The notes under the pieces: generated by a model
Seen by the model: only the letters and a program-made list of their open reading frames with translations
Database searches by the model: none
What the model was told of the DNA's origin: nothing
NCBI RefSeq assembly: GCF_007725405.1
Contig: NZ_CP042163.1
Coordinates: forward strand, 4,092,001-4,156,000
Origin: Shouchella miscanthi
GTDB lineage: Bacteria; Bacillota; Bacilli; Bacillales; Bacillaceae_D
DNA: 64,000 nt
Direction: 5' to 3'
Part shown: positions 24,314-30,882 of the stretch, one piece after another
Position numbering within the stretch: the stretch's first letter is position 1
Layout: every line of letters starts with the position of its first letter
Position numbers and translations under genes: made by a program

Positions 24314-24622
24314 TCACCGTTGAAGCAAATCAAAAATAAAGGATACAACTGTAATTCCTAGCACAACAACAAAAAAACCAATAACGATAAAAAAGATAAT
24401 ATAGAAAATAAATAGTAAATTTACAGTCAATGAATTGTACTGCTTTCGGAGCCAATAATATAGAAAATAGGAGAGTCCTCCTCCAGTGGTGTGGTAAAAA
24501 CCATTCCATATTTTCTTTAAAACAGTATCAGGGTTTTCAATAACACAGCTTTCGTAAATCCGCCTATAAACAGCACTGTAAAATAAAAGCCCCATTCCAG
24601 CAGAAATATTGAGTGCATACAT
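24314..24622 (-). CDS. Tandem small membrane protein family, copy A (N-terminus probably frameshifted)
   Basis: 102 residues from ATG 24622 with three hydrophobic segments. It shares with copies B-D the block GxGLL near residue 10, then SAVYRRIYES, then WNGFYHTTGGGLSYFLYYWL near 39-58, then a long hydrophobic C-terminus. Copies B and C have an extra N-terminal membrane helix before GLL. Here the matching residues lie in another frame upstream (from ATG 24702, ending near SAVCM), again one base out of phase. So the true start is probably near 24702 with one base lost near 24622. I do not recognise the family. The motif W-N-x-F-Y-H-x-x-G-G-G-x-S-Y is the best handle. Confidence 0.55.
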   Translation of the reverse strand: MYALNISAGMGLLFYSAVYRRIYESCVIENPDTVLKKIWNGFYHTTGGGLSYFLYYWLRKQYNSLTVNLLFIFYIIFFIVIGFFVVVLGITVVSFIFDLLQR

Positions 24623-24769
24623 ACAGCAGATTCAAAAGTATATAAAGAGTTCAAGGGAATAAATAAACACGTATGAATCACATCCGAAATCGTTAATAGC
24701 ATTAGATATTTCTAAGAATATAAATGAAGCTAAGTCCATTTAGAAACCTCAACACTTTCAAATAAATTC

Positions 24770-25108
24770 TTATGAAAAAAGCCATTCAATAAAAGCCAAA
24801 CCCACTGTAGCAAGAGGAATTCCAATAGAGATAAAAGCTATTAAGTACAGCAGAAATACAAGCTTTGCAATCCCTAGTTTGTATTTTTTTATTAGCCAGA
24901 AATAAAAAAAGTAAGAAAGCCCCCCACCACATACATGATAAAAAAGATTCCATATTCTCTTTATTGTCGAATCGGGATCCTTTATAAGAAAGCTTTCATA
25001 AATAAGTTTATAAAGAGGACTCCAAATTAATAAACCTATGCCAGCGGAAATAGTAAGGCCGACAGCTATAAAAAGAAACGCAGATAAGAAAAATTGGACT
25101 AAAAACAT
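24770..25108 (-). CDS. Tandem small membrane protein family, copy B
   Basis: 112 residues and the cleanest member: ATG at 25108 with GAGGG about nine bases upstream. Hydrophobic helix 1 (about 2-31) runs into TISAGIGLLIWS. A polar link with LYKLIYESFLIKDPD follows, then the family core IWNLFYHVCGGGLSYFFYFWL near 48-68, a basic turn IKKYK, and two hydrophobic stretches (about 75-112). No signal peptidase site, no enzyme motif, one Cys. Same strand and spacing as its neighbours, suggesting one transcript. Function unknown; the conserved His and Gly-Gly-Gly inside a membrane segment are the notable features. Confidence 0.7.
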   Translation of the reverse strand: MFLVQFFLSAFLFIAVGLTISAGIGLLIWSPLYKLIYESFLIKDPDSTIKRIWNLFYHVCGGGLSYFFYFWLIKKYKLGIAKLVFLLYLIAFISIGIPLATVGLAFIEWLFS

Positions 25109-25138
25109 GGTGCAACCCTCAAATTCAGCATCAATTGT

Positions 25139-25492
25139 TTAAGGAAAAATCGCTTCAATAATTGAGACAATAAACATTAGAAATAAAAATCCTACACAAA
25201 GATATAAAATCAAATAGAGAAGAGAAACTAAATTTGATGTGAAATAAGCGTAACGTTTATGTAACCAATAGTATAAATGATAGGAGAGGCCTCCACCTAT
25301 AATATGGTAAAAAATGTTCCATGCATTTTTCATCTTATTATCCGTTTTTTCTATAAGAAAACTATCATAAATGTGTCTGTAAACTTTACTCCAAATTAAG
25401 AGCCCCACTCCAGCAGACACATTTAATGAGTAGGATGTTATTAAAAAAATATATAGAATTAATTTTACTGTTTCTATAAATAACTGGACCAC
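25139..25492 (-). CDS. Tandem small membrane protein family, copy C
   Basis: 117 residues, GTG start at 25492 close behind AAAAGGAA, so the start is not certain. Helix 1 (LILYIFLITSYSLNVSAGVGLLIWS), then KVYRHIYDSFLIEKTD, core AWNIFYHIIGGGLSYHLYYWL near 53-73, basic turn HKRY, and two C-terminal hydrophobic stretches. It lies 30 bases before copy B on the same strand. Identity to B is visible throughout but moderate, so these are older duplicates, not fresh copies. Function unknown. Confidence 0.65.
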   Translation of the reverse strand: MVQLFIETVKLILYIFLITSYSLNVSAGVGLLIWSKVYRHIYDSFLIEKTDNKMKNAWNIFYHIIGGGLSYHLYYWLHKRYAYFTSNLVSLLYLILYLCVGFLFLMFIVSIIEAIFP

Positions 25493-25539
25493 TTCCTTTT
25501 AAAATATATTCTTTATAAAAGGGCGTTTTTTAGGGGGAT

Positions 25540-25605
25540 ATTCTTGTGATATTGGTTTTTTCATACTAATATCAGCCGTGATCCAGTTGGAGGGTGCTGT
25601 TTCAT
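25540..25605 (-). pseudogene. Decayed 5' fragment of the PEGA-like gene
   Basis: The minus strand from ATG 25605 reads MKQHPPTGSRLILV and then TGA, where the intact gene (24217) has MEQHPPTGSRLTLV followed by CGA (Arg). A C-to-T change made the stop. Nucleotide similarity covers about 65 bases and then ends. It shows that the PEGA-like gene once stood next to another membrane-gene copy. Confidence 0.6.
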
Positions 25606-25720
25606 TAGGTATGTACCTATTGTTAGATCCCGGCATGCTCCAGAATTTCACTTTGCTCAAGGAACGTAATTAAGATCTTATGTTAGAACTTGTTTTGTTT
25701 TGCTGTTCATTATAAACGAG

Positions 25721-26008
25721 TTAGTTAGTTAAAAACGAGACAAGGTTTAAAGCAATTGTAAGACCTAAAATTGAAAAAGGAATAGAAGCAATGAGGTAAA
25801 GAGAAAAAAATAGCTTAGTCTTAGGAATAGAATGACGATCTTTTAGCCAAAAATAAAAGAAATAAGATACACCTCCGCCCGTTAAATGATAAAAGAAATT
25901 CCAACTTTTTTTAAGGGGAGTATTAGCATCCACAAACATCAAACTGTTATATGAAAATTTAAAGGGTTTTTCCCAAACCAATAAACCAAAACCGGTTATA
26001 AAAATCAT
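25721..26008 (-). CDS. Tandem small membrane protein family, copy D
   Basis: 95 residues from ATG 26008: TGFGLLVW, then FKFSYNSLMFVDANTP, core SWNFFYHLTGGGVSYFFYFWL near 34-54, then hydrophobic C-terminus. The frame stays open upstream of this ATG for about 19 codons with a membrane-helix sequence (ELILTFFLFITFG) that matches helix 1 of copies B and C. That frame has no ATG, GTG or TTG, only ATT codons behind AAGGACGTGA. So the real protein is likely longer, with an ATT start, or its 5' end is damaged. Function unknown. Confidence 0.5.
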   Translation of the reverse strand: MIFITGFGLLVWEKPFKFSYNSLMFVDANTPLKKSWNFFYHLTGGGVSYFFYFWLKDRHSIPKTKLFFSLYLIASIPFSILGLTIALNLVSFLTN

Positions 26009-28280: not shown

Positions 28281-28964
28281 TTAACAGCTTCCATCTGAAC
28301 ATGTATCGCCTTGATTCACTACTTGAATCTGAGAGGCATCTTCTTCTTTTACCTTTTCTAACACTTGAAGGAACGCCTCTTTAGGCTGAGCTCCTGAAAC
28401 AGCATATTTTCGGTTAAAAACAAAGAACGGAACGCCTTGAACCCCAATTTGGCTTCCTTCTGCCTGATCTTGCATCACAACGTCCTTATACTGATCGCTG
28501 TCTAATACGGCATTTACCTCTTCTTTCCCTATACCTGCTGTTTCCGCAATCGCTATTAGCGTTTCTCGATCGCCAACATAACGCCCTTGGACAAAATGCG
28601 CGTCCAATAGCGCCTCCATTACTTCTCCCATTTTCCCTTTTTCTTTCGCTAAATGGCTTAAGCGATGAGCATCCATTGTATTCACAACTCGGACACTCTC
28701 TAGATGATAGTTTAAACCTACTTCTTTGGCCTGAGCAGTGACTTGACTATTCATTTCTTTTGCCTTTTCAACAGGGACATTGTACTTTTTCGCAAGAACC
28801 GTCACCATGGACTCTGTCGAGTGCTGTGGTGCACTAGGGTCAAGCTGAAAACTTTTAAACGTCACGTCAACAGGTTGATCAAATTCATCTAAAGCCTGCT
28901 CAAACTTTCTCTTTCCGATATAACAAAACGGACATGCAACATCCGACCAAATCTCTACTTTCAT
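28281..28964 (-). CDS. DsbA/FrnE-family thioredoxin-fold oxidoreductase
   Basis: Cytoplasmic thioredoxin-fold protein of 227 residues without signal peptide. It begins MKVEIWSDVACPFCYIGKRKFEQAL, the FrnE/HCCA-isomerase subgroup with active-site CPFC near 11-14. An alpha-helical insert (about 60-150) contains NTMDAHRLSHLAKEKGK, and the cis-Pro loop IGVQGVPFFVFNRKYAVSGAQP lies near 175-196. The C-terminal tail ends CSDGSC, adding two cysteines. The family is linked to redox control and disulfide stress (FrnE, YwbO/YjbH relatives). Single gene. Confidence 0.88.
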   Translation of the reverse strand: MKVEIWSDVACPFCYIGKRKFEQALDEFDQPVDVTFKSFQLDPSAPQHSTESMVTVLAKKYNVPVEKAKEMNSQVTAQAKEVGLNYHLESVRVVNTMDAHRLSHLAKEKGKMGEVMEALLDAHFVQGRYVGDRETLIAIAETAGIGKEEVNAVLDSDQYKDVVMQDQAEGSQIGVQGVPFFVFNRKYAVSGAQPKEAFLQVLEKVKEEDASQIQVVNQGDTCSDGSC

Positions 28965-29148
28965 TCTTCATTCGCCCCCTTCTTTTTATACGATATACCC
29001 ATCAATAAACAAGTGCAACGGATGTGCTTTTAATCACCGTTTTATATCCTTTTAAAAAGAAATTATAAAAAAAAGTGATCCAATGTGATCTCTCCTGCGT
29101 TAGCTAGGTAAGTAAAAACAATAAAGCTTTTTAAAAGGAGGTTCTGTC

Positions 29149-29214
29149 ATGTTTACAGATATTCTCGTTCAAGCTTTTGAATCCGTTTCTAGCATTATCG
29201 GTACTCTTGGTTAA
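29149..29214 (+). CDS. 21-residue amphipathic peptide, copy 1
   Basis: ATG preceded by AAAAGGAGG at eight bases. The product starts MFTDILVQAF and ends in the shared tail ESVSSI-IGTLG. Hydrophobic residues at 2, 5, 6, 9, 10, 13, 16, 17 and 20 line one face of a helix; Asp4, Gln8, Glu11, Ser12, Ser15 and Thr19 line the other. Net charge about -2, no Lys, Arg or Cys, no signal peptide. Size and pattern resemble phenol-soluble modulins or leaderless peptides, but I recognise no family. Copy 1 differs from copies 2-6 only at silent sites (CTC, TCC, GGT) and in its upstream DNA, so it carries the array promoter side. Confidence 0.75.
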   Translation: MFTDILVQAFESVSSIIGTLG

Positions 29215-29252
29215 TTTTCTTTTTCCTTATTTTCAAACTGGAGGTGGACCTT

Positions 29253-29318
29253 ATGTTTACAGATATTCTTGTTCAAGCTTTTGAATCAGTTTCTAGCATT
29301 ATCGGTACTCTTGGCTAA
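29253..29318 (+). CDS. 21-residue amphipathic peptide, copy 2
   Basis: Same 21-residue product as copy 1. Ribosome binding site GGAGGTGG, with ATG seven bases after GGAGG. The 38-base spacer from the previous stop is nearly identical to the later spacers. See copy 1 for peptide features. Confidence 0.75.
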   Translation: MFTDILVQAFESVSSIIGTLG

Positions 29319-29356
29319 TTCTCTTTTTCCTTATTTTCAAACTGGAGGTGGATCTT

Positions 29357-29422
29357 ATGTTTACAGATATTCTTGTTCAAGCTTTTGAATCAGTTTCTAG
29401 CATTATCGGCACTCTTGGCTAA
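29357..29422 (+). CDS. 21-residue amphipathic peptide, copy 3
   Basis: Same product as copy 1, with one silent change (GGC for GGT). Own GGAGGTGG site. Confidence 0.75.
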   Translation: MFTDILVQAFESVSSIIGTLG

Positions 29423-29459
29423 TTCTTTTTTTCTTATTTTCAAACTGGAGGTGGATTTT

Positions 29460-29525
29460 ATGTTTACAGATATTCTTGTTCAAGCTTTTGAATCAGTTTC
29501 TAGCATTATCGGTACTCTTGGCTAA
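29460..29525 (+). CDS. 21-residue amphipathic peptide, copy 4
   Basis: Same product as copy 1. The spacer before it is one base shorter and varies in the T-rich part, so the repeat period is 103 here instead of 104. The coding part is untouched, which supports selection on the peptide. Confidence 0.75.
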   Translation: MFTDILVQAFESVSSIIGTLG

Positions 29526-29563
29526 TTCTCTTTTTCCTTATTTTCAAACTGGAGGTGGATCTT

Positions 29564-29629
29564 ATGTTTACAGATATTCTTGTTCAAGCTTTTGAATCAG
29601 TTTCTAGCATTATCGGTACGCTTGGCTAA
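29564..29629 (+). CDS. 21-residue amphipathic peptide, copy 5
   Basis: Same product as copy 1; one silent change (ACG for ACT). Own GGAGGTGG site. Confidence 0.75.
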   Translation: MFTDILVQAFESVSSIIGTLG

Positions 29630-29667
29630 TTCTCTTTTTCCTTATTTTCAAACTGGAGGTGGATCTT

Positions 29668-29733
29668 ATGTTTACAGATATTCTTGTTCAAGCTTTTGAA
29701 TCAGTTTCTAGCATTATCGGCACTCTTGGTTAA
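29668..29733 (+). CDS. 21-residue amphipathic peptide, copy 6
   Basis: Same product as copy 1; silent changes GGC and GGT. Own GGAGGTGG site. Confidence 0.75.
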   Translation: MFTDILVQAFESVSSIIGTLG

Positions 29734-29771
29734 TTCTCTTTTTCCTTATTTTGAAACAGGAGGTGGATCAA

Positions 29772-29837
29772 ATGCTCACAGACGTACTTACACAACTTTT
29801 TGAATCGGTGTCTAGCATCGTGGGAACTCTTGGGTAA
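29772..29837 (+). CDS. 21-residue amphipathic peptide, divergent copy 7
   Basis: Same length and frame, but diverged: residues 2, 5, 7, 9 and 17 become Leu, Val, Thr, Leu and Val. The helical pattern, Asp4, Gln8, Phe10, Glu11 and the block ESVSSI-GTLG stay. Many codons also changed silently (GAC, CTT, TCG, GTG, GGG). Conservative replacements with a kept frame are what selection on a protein gives. It also has AGGAGGTGG, and a terminator follows at 12 bases. Probably a second peptide type in the same system. Confidence 0.75.
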   Translation: MLTDVLTQLFESVSSIVGTLG

Positions 29838-29848
29838 TCAATATGAAC

Positions 29849-29884
29849 GGGCAGTGATCCTTATCGCTGCTCGCTTTTTTTGTT
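29849..29884 (+). terminator. Terminator of the peptide array
   Basis: GGGCAGTGAT pairs with ATCGCTGCTC (two G-U pairs, loop CCTT), followed by GC and a run of seven T. It closes the array as one transcript. Confidence 0.88.
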
Positions 29885-30018
29885 TTTAACACGCCAAAGC
29901 ACTATACACGGCTACCTCCTCCAATGGCTCCTAACGTCTTTAGCAACCTTCTTTTTGGCAAACCCTCATAAGACTAGTGTAGTATGGAGACAGTGATTGC
30001 TTAAAAGGAGCAAATGAT

Positions 30019-30882
30019 ATGAAGCATACAGCGCTTATTACCGGTGCAACAAGCGGAATTGGCTTTGAAACAGCCAAGTTTTTACTAGCGAGCAACTATC
30101 GGGTAATCATTGCCAGTCGAAATAAAGAAAAAGGGGAAGCCACCGTTAGACTTCTCCGCTCTTATGGAGCTGTCTCTTTTTCTTTCCTCGATTTAGGGAA
30201 CCTTTCTTCCATTCAAACCTTTTCAGAAAGCGTACCATTTTCAAGATTGGATTTACTTATCAATAATGCAGGGGTTATGATTCCACCATATGAGCTTACA
30301 GTAGACGGTTTTGAAAGACAGTTTGGTACGAATCATCTTGGTCACTTCGCATTGACCGGGTATCTTTTGCCACTCTTAACTTCTACTCCTTCATCCCGTA
30401 TTGTGACGATCACAAGTATCGCTGCCATTAAAGGAACGATTCAGTTTGCTAATTACAATGGAAAGTATGGTTACAATCCGATGACCTTTTACCGACAGAG
30501 TAAGCTTGCCAACTTTTTATTTGCTCGAGAGCTGGATCGACGTTTAAAAGTACATCAAAAATCCACTATTAGTGTCGCTTGCCATCCTGGGCTAGCTTAT
30601 TCAAACTTGCTCTCCAAAGGCTCAGGCAAGAAAGCACATTGGTTGATTCGCAGCATTTTACCCTATCTTGTTCAATCAGCTGAACAAGGCGCTGCATCGA
30701 CATGTTATGCTGCCACAAATGCCACGCTTAACGGCGGAGAATGGATTGGGCCTAGTGGCTATAGGGAATGGTACGGGGAACCTAAACCTCAAACAACTGG
30801 GGATACTATTTTTAATAAACACCAAGCACAGTCTTTATGGTCGCTGTCAGAAAAACGAACCGGTATCTATTATTTATCGTAA
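30019..30882 (+). CDS. Short-chain dehydrogenase/reductase
   Basis: NAD(P)-dependent oxidoreductase of 287 residues. TGATSGIG near 8-15 binds the dinucleotide, SRNKEKGEA suggests NADP preference (Arg after the second strand), NNAG near 90, catalytic Ser in ITSIAAIKG near 139 and YRQSK near 165-169. The sequence is closest to the retinol-dehydrogenase/WW-oxidoreductase-like branch (DGFERQFGTNHLGHFALTGYLLP). Substrate unknown. AAAAGGAG stands seven bases before ATG. The RibD gene follows 13 bases later, so both are likely on one mRNA although no common pathway is obvious. Confidence 0.9.
   Translation: MKHTALITGATSGIGFETAKFLLASNYRVIIASRNKEKGEATVRLLRSYGAVSFSFLDLGNLSSIQTFSESVPFSRLDLLINNAGVMIPPYELTVDGFERQFGTNHLGHFALTGYLLPLLTSTPSSRIVTITSIAAIKGTIQFANYNGKYGYNPMTFYRQSKLANFLFARELDRRLKVHQKSTISVACHPGLAYSNLLSKGSGKKAHWLIRSILPYLVQSAEQGAASTCYAATNATLNGGEWIGPSGYREWYGEPKPQTTGDTIFNKHQAQSLWSLSEKRTGIYYLS

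Follow-up and report, generated by a model that had tools for sequence, protein, structure and literature searches.

Seven tandem copies of a 21-codon gene

The 64,000-nucleotide stretch of Shouchella miscanthi DNA analysed here (the window) contains an array of seven 21-codon genes, and the question that it raises is whether so short a repeat consists of real genes and, if so, how these are controlled and what their products do. The genes lie in tandem on the plus strand at positions 29149–29214, 29253–29318, 29357–29422, 29460–29525, 29564–29629, 29668–29733 and 29772–29837, each with an ATG at the first of these positions, a GGAGG upstream and a TAA stop, and they follow one another at intervals of 103–104 bases; Tandem Repeats Finder reports the segment 29149–29838 with a period of 104, 6.6 copies and 93% matches. 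Reading of the frames, together with a search of the same genome for peptide units, shows that copies 1–6 encode one identical peptide, MFTDILVQAFESVSSIIGTLG, and that the seven array copies are the only ones present. Copy 7, assigned from its frame and from relatives, encodes MLTDVLTQLFESVSSIVGTLG; it differs by five changes, the number given in the preliminary description, although two of these, V7T and A9L, are less conservative than was proposed there. A predicted intrinsic terminator, a stem-loop of 11 pairs followed by a T run, is located at 29848–29873 on the plus strand, and a terminator-like stem is seen by eye 3′ of the last copy in seven of the eight relatives inspected (the eighth, G226, being ambiguous); the array appears to be a discrete unit closed by this stem. 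Re-reading of the sequence confirms the coordinates, unit length, GGAGG sites, peptide and terminator as first described. Genes this short sit below the usual length cut-offs of gene callers and may easily escape annotation.

The 21-mers are predicted to form amphipathic helices, within a size range of about 20–26 residues and without an evident signal peptide. All six that were tested have a helical moment above that of 5000 shuffles (p ≤0.001) and a net charge of −1 to −2, in agreement with the amphipathic and anionic character originally proposed. No credible match to the 21-mers is seen in Pfam, NCBIfam, PHROGs or PDB, with a single Pfam row at chance level, and the earlier statement that there is no described family with this sequence stands for Pfam, NCBIfam and PHROGs. 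Specifically, none of eight peptides matches the phenol-soluble modulin/delta-lysin family in Pfam and none of seven matches anything in NCBIfam, both searches being of low sensitivity with such very short queries.

Relatives of the 21-mer and evidence of coding

Relatives of the 21-mer are present across other species, genera and families. Within the genus 6 of 13 genomes have a match (its own included), and the profile search of the 21-mer suggested in the preliminary description finds relatives in 9 of 41 genomes of the family, belonging to two genera, and in 29 of 397 genomes of the order at E ≤0.1; 14 of these 29 were accepted as full-length or 19-of-21 matches, and the 15 with partial matches (E 0.006–0.1) were dropped without individual inspection. 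A class-level search matches 10 of 398 genomes, with G000 (the genome of the window) and G082 accepted and the other eight rejected as partial, four of them lying inside frames of 1451–1478 codons; no credible match to the 21-mer profile lies outside the order. Plasmids, queried with one 21-mer and one 30-mer, and phages, queried with one 21-mer, likewise yield no relatives.

Copy number of the 21-mer differs among species. G004, also a Shouchella, has the same seven-copy array as the window, the g49 genomes have one to three copies of MFSDVLSQLFDSISNIINTLG, and the g50 genomes have a peptide pair, typically MFNDVLMNLFNAVSSIINTIG and MLNEVLMNFFNAVSSIINTIG. In five Shouchella genomes (G000, G002, G004, G009 and, with one change, G012) the array ends in a gene of the last-copy type. 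A pattern that fixed the length and some residues, and that therefore biases residue counts somewhat, gave sixty units from 18 array sources. Among 26 Shouchella genes of the first type, 23 of 25 distinct variants are silent (25% expected), as are 13 of 14 among five genes of the last type and 37 of 74 across all 60 units. Frame-breaking variants of the units in related strains had been named in advance as evidence against coding; all 60 units keep frame and length, the length being fixed by the pattern, and the exceptions are one frame-broken unit in G005 and a degenerate, over-extended copy in G016. Because the units are conserved across species with mostly silent variation they are more than a chance repeat and look like real genes, and the tandem copies and the relatives support the earlier proposal of conserved, dosage-amplified coding units with no evident signal peptide.

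A shared ECF-type promoter element

A sequence shared among the upstream regions of the arrays identifies a putative ECF-type promoter at 29069–29102 on the plus strand, composed of an A-tract, a −35 element (GTGATCC, 29075–29081), a 16-base spacer and a −10 element (CGTTA, 29098–29102), with TGATCC-N16-CGTTA at 29076–29102. Arrays of different families have in common the upstream A-tract, GTGATCC (or TGATCT), 16 bases, and CGTTA or CGTAT; ECF sigma promoters are laid out in this way, with a CGT at −10 and this spacing. The pattern TGATCY-N16-CGTW is present no more than 150 nt from the first start codon in 21 of 24 arrays (18 of the 21-mer kind and six of a 30-mer kind described below), compared to a shuffle rate of 0.00015 per array, and when spacings of 10–23 are tried, 16 is found in 21 arrays, 17 in one and every other spacing in none. 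The arrays without the N16 element are those of G209 (spacing 17), G008 and G016, the latter two being single-copy 21-mers. In G012 (C31, L125) there are two 21-mer units, each with its own element. A looser pattern without the A-tract was rejected as noisy, with 9 sites versus 6 in the reversed control in G000, and 16 versus 11 in G014.

The element also bears on whether the genes could be type I toxins, which are short hydrophobic membrane toxins held by antisense RNA and are amplified in the Ldr and Ibs arrays. The tandem arrangement of very short reading frames with many hydrophobic residues would be in keeping with this, but the 21-mers have an amphipathic pattern, Rfam gives no match on either strand of 28900–30100, and promoter-like sites are no more numerous than expected (three found, 3.0 expected from shuffles). 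Moreover, the element ends 29–47 nt before the start codon in all but one of the 21 arrays with the element, which leaves scant room for a long leader, and we regard an array of type I toxins as highly improbable.

A second peptide family behind the same element

Tandem genes for 30-residue peptides, for example MTDVTQILTDILNESGNESGNLDVDVSNLL, lie behind the same element in G007, G016 and G017. These belong to a second family of acidic, tandemly encoded peptides of 29–30 residues, which are not evidently related in sequence to the 21-mers and have no credible match in Pfam or NCBIfam. A 30-mer profile finds the family in 7 of 397 genomes of the order and in 3 of 41 of the taxonomic family, with as many as 11 matches in a single genome, and silent changes account for 42 of 85 variants over 18 genes (21.5% expected). 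Three of the four units in G244 (L303) have their own promoter element; the matches in G334 and G392 are weak and single, one of them interrupted by an in-frame stop, and neither genome shows the motif. One divergent unit of G017 contains both Lys and Arg, and one of G074 contains Lys.

Other genes preceded by the element

When a preceding AA is included, the element is found at five sites in G000, that of the array among them, and at none in the reversed control. Of the others, one site is upstream of an ECF sigma gene that is followed by a gene for an RskA-type anti-sigma protein, and because the element precedes the ECF gene itself, autoregulation is suggested. A second site lies upstream of a gene for a 447-aa secreted protein with an MPQTGMGG sortase signal, adjoining a sortase gene; this surface protein matches nothing in Pfam, and its best PDB match is only at E 0.12. 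Two further sites were discounted, one being within a stretch that is conserved in many genomes and is probably coding, and the other, near 3.378 Mb, having no evident gene start. The sigma factor of the L183 operon contains Sigma70_r2 and r4 domains and its anti-sigma protein contains RskA_C (E 5e-17) and zf-HC2; the NCBIfam SigK model scores the ECF sigma at 121 bits, under its cut-off of 226. The sortase has the Pfam domain, and its best NCBIfam model is class F, at 144 below the cut-off of 166. The element is also located upstream of the ECF gene in G009, G333, G173 and G222, and no strict motif is present before that of G226. The organization is that of an RskA-controlled ECF regulon, with an ECF gene and then an RskA-type anti-sigma gene, and a common element of fixed spacing with putative autoregulation.

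A stricter pattern applied to the order sample finds sites in 89 of 397 genomes, with 130 sites among the matches listed and five in the reversed control. Inspection of 90 distinct sites shows that 63 precede members of a surface-protein family, nine peptide genes, four sortases, two ECF genes, one a CHRD protein gene and 11 other genes, such that 79 of the 90 precede regulon-type or peptide genes, a count that is partly circular for the peptide sites and a few others, the pattern having been built from the arrays and some surface genes. The gene found most often behind the element encodes a two-repeat surface protein.

This family, collected with a filter of 425–475 aa, comprises L183:1675–3018 (minus strand) and 53 further loci, all encoding secreted two-repeat proteins with a C-terminal sortase signal of the MPxTGMGG type; the three that were scanned have no Pfam match. 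At L215, L218, L240 and L260 the element precedes another kind of secreted protein, most with GLLS after the signal peptide, and at L244, L246, L250, L270, L277 and L285 it precedes genes judged by eye to encode a solute-binding-like protein and DoxX-like and PepSY-like membrane proteins, which may be either further regulon members or chance occurrences. BC2794, a B. cereus ECF factor tied to biofilm (PMC13082335), was considered as a counterpart of the array-linked sigma factor and set aside, with no match established.

Association with RskA

The 21-mer or 30-mer arrays and RskA tend to occur together. An RskA query matches 16 of 41 family genomes (G018 over 59 residues only), and an array is present in 11 of these 16 versus none of the 25 RskA-less genomes (Fisher 1.4e-6, uncorrected for relatedness). 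Among 24 hand-picked genomes of the order, again with relatedness ignored, RskA is found in 11 of 13 with an array and in 2 of 11 others. RskA is present without either array in seven genomes, G013, G018 (weak), G019, G023, G035, G121 and G251 (partial).

Where RskA is lost or broken, the array copies also tend to be single, broken or altered, as judged from the genome sequences. In G005 RskA is missing or interrupted, and the promoter element is kept with one unit out of frame; G008 (86% complete) has a TGA inside RskA and a single unit with a TTG start and no promoter motif. Stops interrupt RskA in G314 and G373 (in G373 a fragment only), and the peptides of these two genomes carry changes absent from the three genus-mates inspected. 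G082 has neither ECF nor RskA gene between flanks that hold both in G333, and G409 has no RskA match; each has one peptide unit, and since this copy is intact and retains its promoter element, these two genomes count against the link. The 21-mer part of G016, which has RskA and a degenerate 21-mer together with a 30-mer array, counts against co-decay as well.

These patterns could also arise if the peptides were intracellular regulators, attached to the cytoplasmic side of the membrane or to the RskA/sortase machinery, that feed back on the envelope response. Every array genome of the family has an RskA match, arrays are poor where RskA is lost or broken, and neither a signal peptide nor, in the stretches inspected, a linked exporter is seen. 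However, a regulator would not usually be encoded in so many copies, the same regulatory site would have to serve two peptide families unrelated to each other, and RskA systems occur without either array, so that we consider this explanation unlikely.

Flanking genes

The immediate flanks of the array are a DsbA-type gene and a short-chain dehydrogenase gene. The preliminary description had no transporter beside the array, which is correct for these flanks but overlooks an ABC ATPase gene on the minus strand 2.2 kb away and, overlapping it, a 719-aa gene without a Pfam match that resembles the permease of that ATPase. This pair is not found in the 3–12 kb inspected around arrays in other genera, and no linked exporter is present in the stretches inspected around arrays. 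None of the window flank genes tested is near arrays of other genera; immunity genes have no general searchable signature. The DsbA flank is retained in all five of the other array-bearing Shouchella genomes and not in other genera; in genus g2 the array has a DEAD-helicase-like gene on one side and a thioredoxin-like/DsbB-like pair on the other (named by eye). A disulfide link was rejected because the peptides contain no Cys. Elsewhere in the window, at 24314–26008 on the minus strand, four adjacent related genes encode small membrane-like proteins of 95–117 aa that have a GGGxSYxxYxWL motif in common (by eye) and no Pfam match.

Comparison with known systems

Phenol-soluble modulins and delta-lysin are signal-less amphipathic helices of about 20–26 residues, some of them tandem, which are switched by agr and exported by the Pmt ABC transporter. 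The array peptides are similarly signal-less, amphipathic and tandem, but they are anionic, have no linked exporter, and are preceded by a promoter element of an ECF/RskA regulon. Leaderless bacteriocins of the aureocin A70 type are also tandem, signal-less short peptides; they are cationic and have dedicated transporter and immunity genes, whereas the array peptides have a charge of −1 to −2 and no linked transporter or immunity gene in the stretches inspected. A secreted peptide of one of these two kinds, acting in attack or signalling with the ECF link as a switch only, would account for tandem amphipathic 21-mers without evident signal peptides and for copy numbers that vary among species. 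It fits poorly with the negative charge of the six tested, with the lack of an exporter or immunity gene at a conserved position in the stretches inspected and of any Pfam or NCBIfam family match, and with a promoter element common to sortase and surface genes, and we think it unlikely. Rather, an output of an envelope response, and not a stand-alone bacteriocin or quorum system, is suggested by three features absent from the preliminary description: the ECF-type promoter with its regulon, the existence of a second peptide family, and the RskA association.

In the Streptomyces BldN-chaplin-sortase system an ECF sigma drives small amphipathic coat proteins together with sortase-anchored proteins, the chaplins having Sec signals and being longer than the array peptides. 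The likeness, by layout alone, is in the putative ECF control of small amphipathic peptides and sortase-anchored proteins; unlike chaplins, the array peptides are shorter and without an evident signal peptide. In SigK-RskA systems (ECF18/ECF19), an RskA-type anti-sigma gene is directly behind the ECF gene and the regulon includes secreted proteins, with eleven genes including mpt70 and mpt83 in the regulon, according to PMC7509140. The array genome has the same gene order and a regulon with secreted proteins, and differs in its micropeptide arrays, which do not figure in the SigK-RskA passages of PMC7509140, and in its element, TGATCC-N16-CGTTA. Among the matches listed from the open-access literature, none describes such a system in its title or the start of its abstract. 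The parts are of known kinds, an ECF/RskA regulon and amphipathic micropeptides, and their combination is new within the scope of these searches.

A model for the arrays

We favor, as reasonably probable, an explanation in which the array is the dosage-amplified output of an RskA-ECF envelope regulon and encodes membrane- or surface-active helices. The seven units would be co-transcribed from one ECF-sigma promoter and translated into a short amphipathic helix of negative charge. Their sigma factor is very probably the product of the gene at about 1.3386–1.3392 Mb of G000:C1, and would be held by the RskA-type anti-sigma protein until an envelope signal frees it; the freed sigma would then give many peptide molecules per transcript, together with sortase-anchored surface proteins. 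The most likely target of the peptides is the membrane or, presumably after export, the cell surface, and they may be surface-active or coat-forming helices, much like phenol-soluble modulins or short chaplins. Amplification of the copies suggests that the product is required in quantity, as would be expected of a coat or surfactant more than of a signal. More tentatively, we speculate that ECF-sigma-driven micropeptide arrays are widespread in bacilli, with at least two unrelated families (the 21-mers and the 29–30-mers) occupying one slot of the RskA regulon beside sortase-anchored proteins and forming a self-assembling surface coat or surfactant layer built by gene dosage, a Firmicute counterpart of the BldN-chaplin system.

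Through the shared promoter, what was an orphan repeat becomes a regulon member that can be tested, and the element offers a promoter-based route to further micropeptides. It ties an RskA-type envelope sensor of bacilli to surface proteins, a sortase and possibly surface-active helices, and array and common promoter together suggest that these bacteria have a class of very small surface peptides that has gone unnoticed. If this is true, a tiny coat or surfactant programme would be present in several families of the order and would have been overlooked so far.
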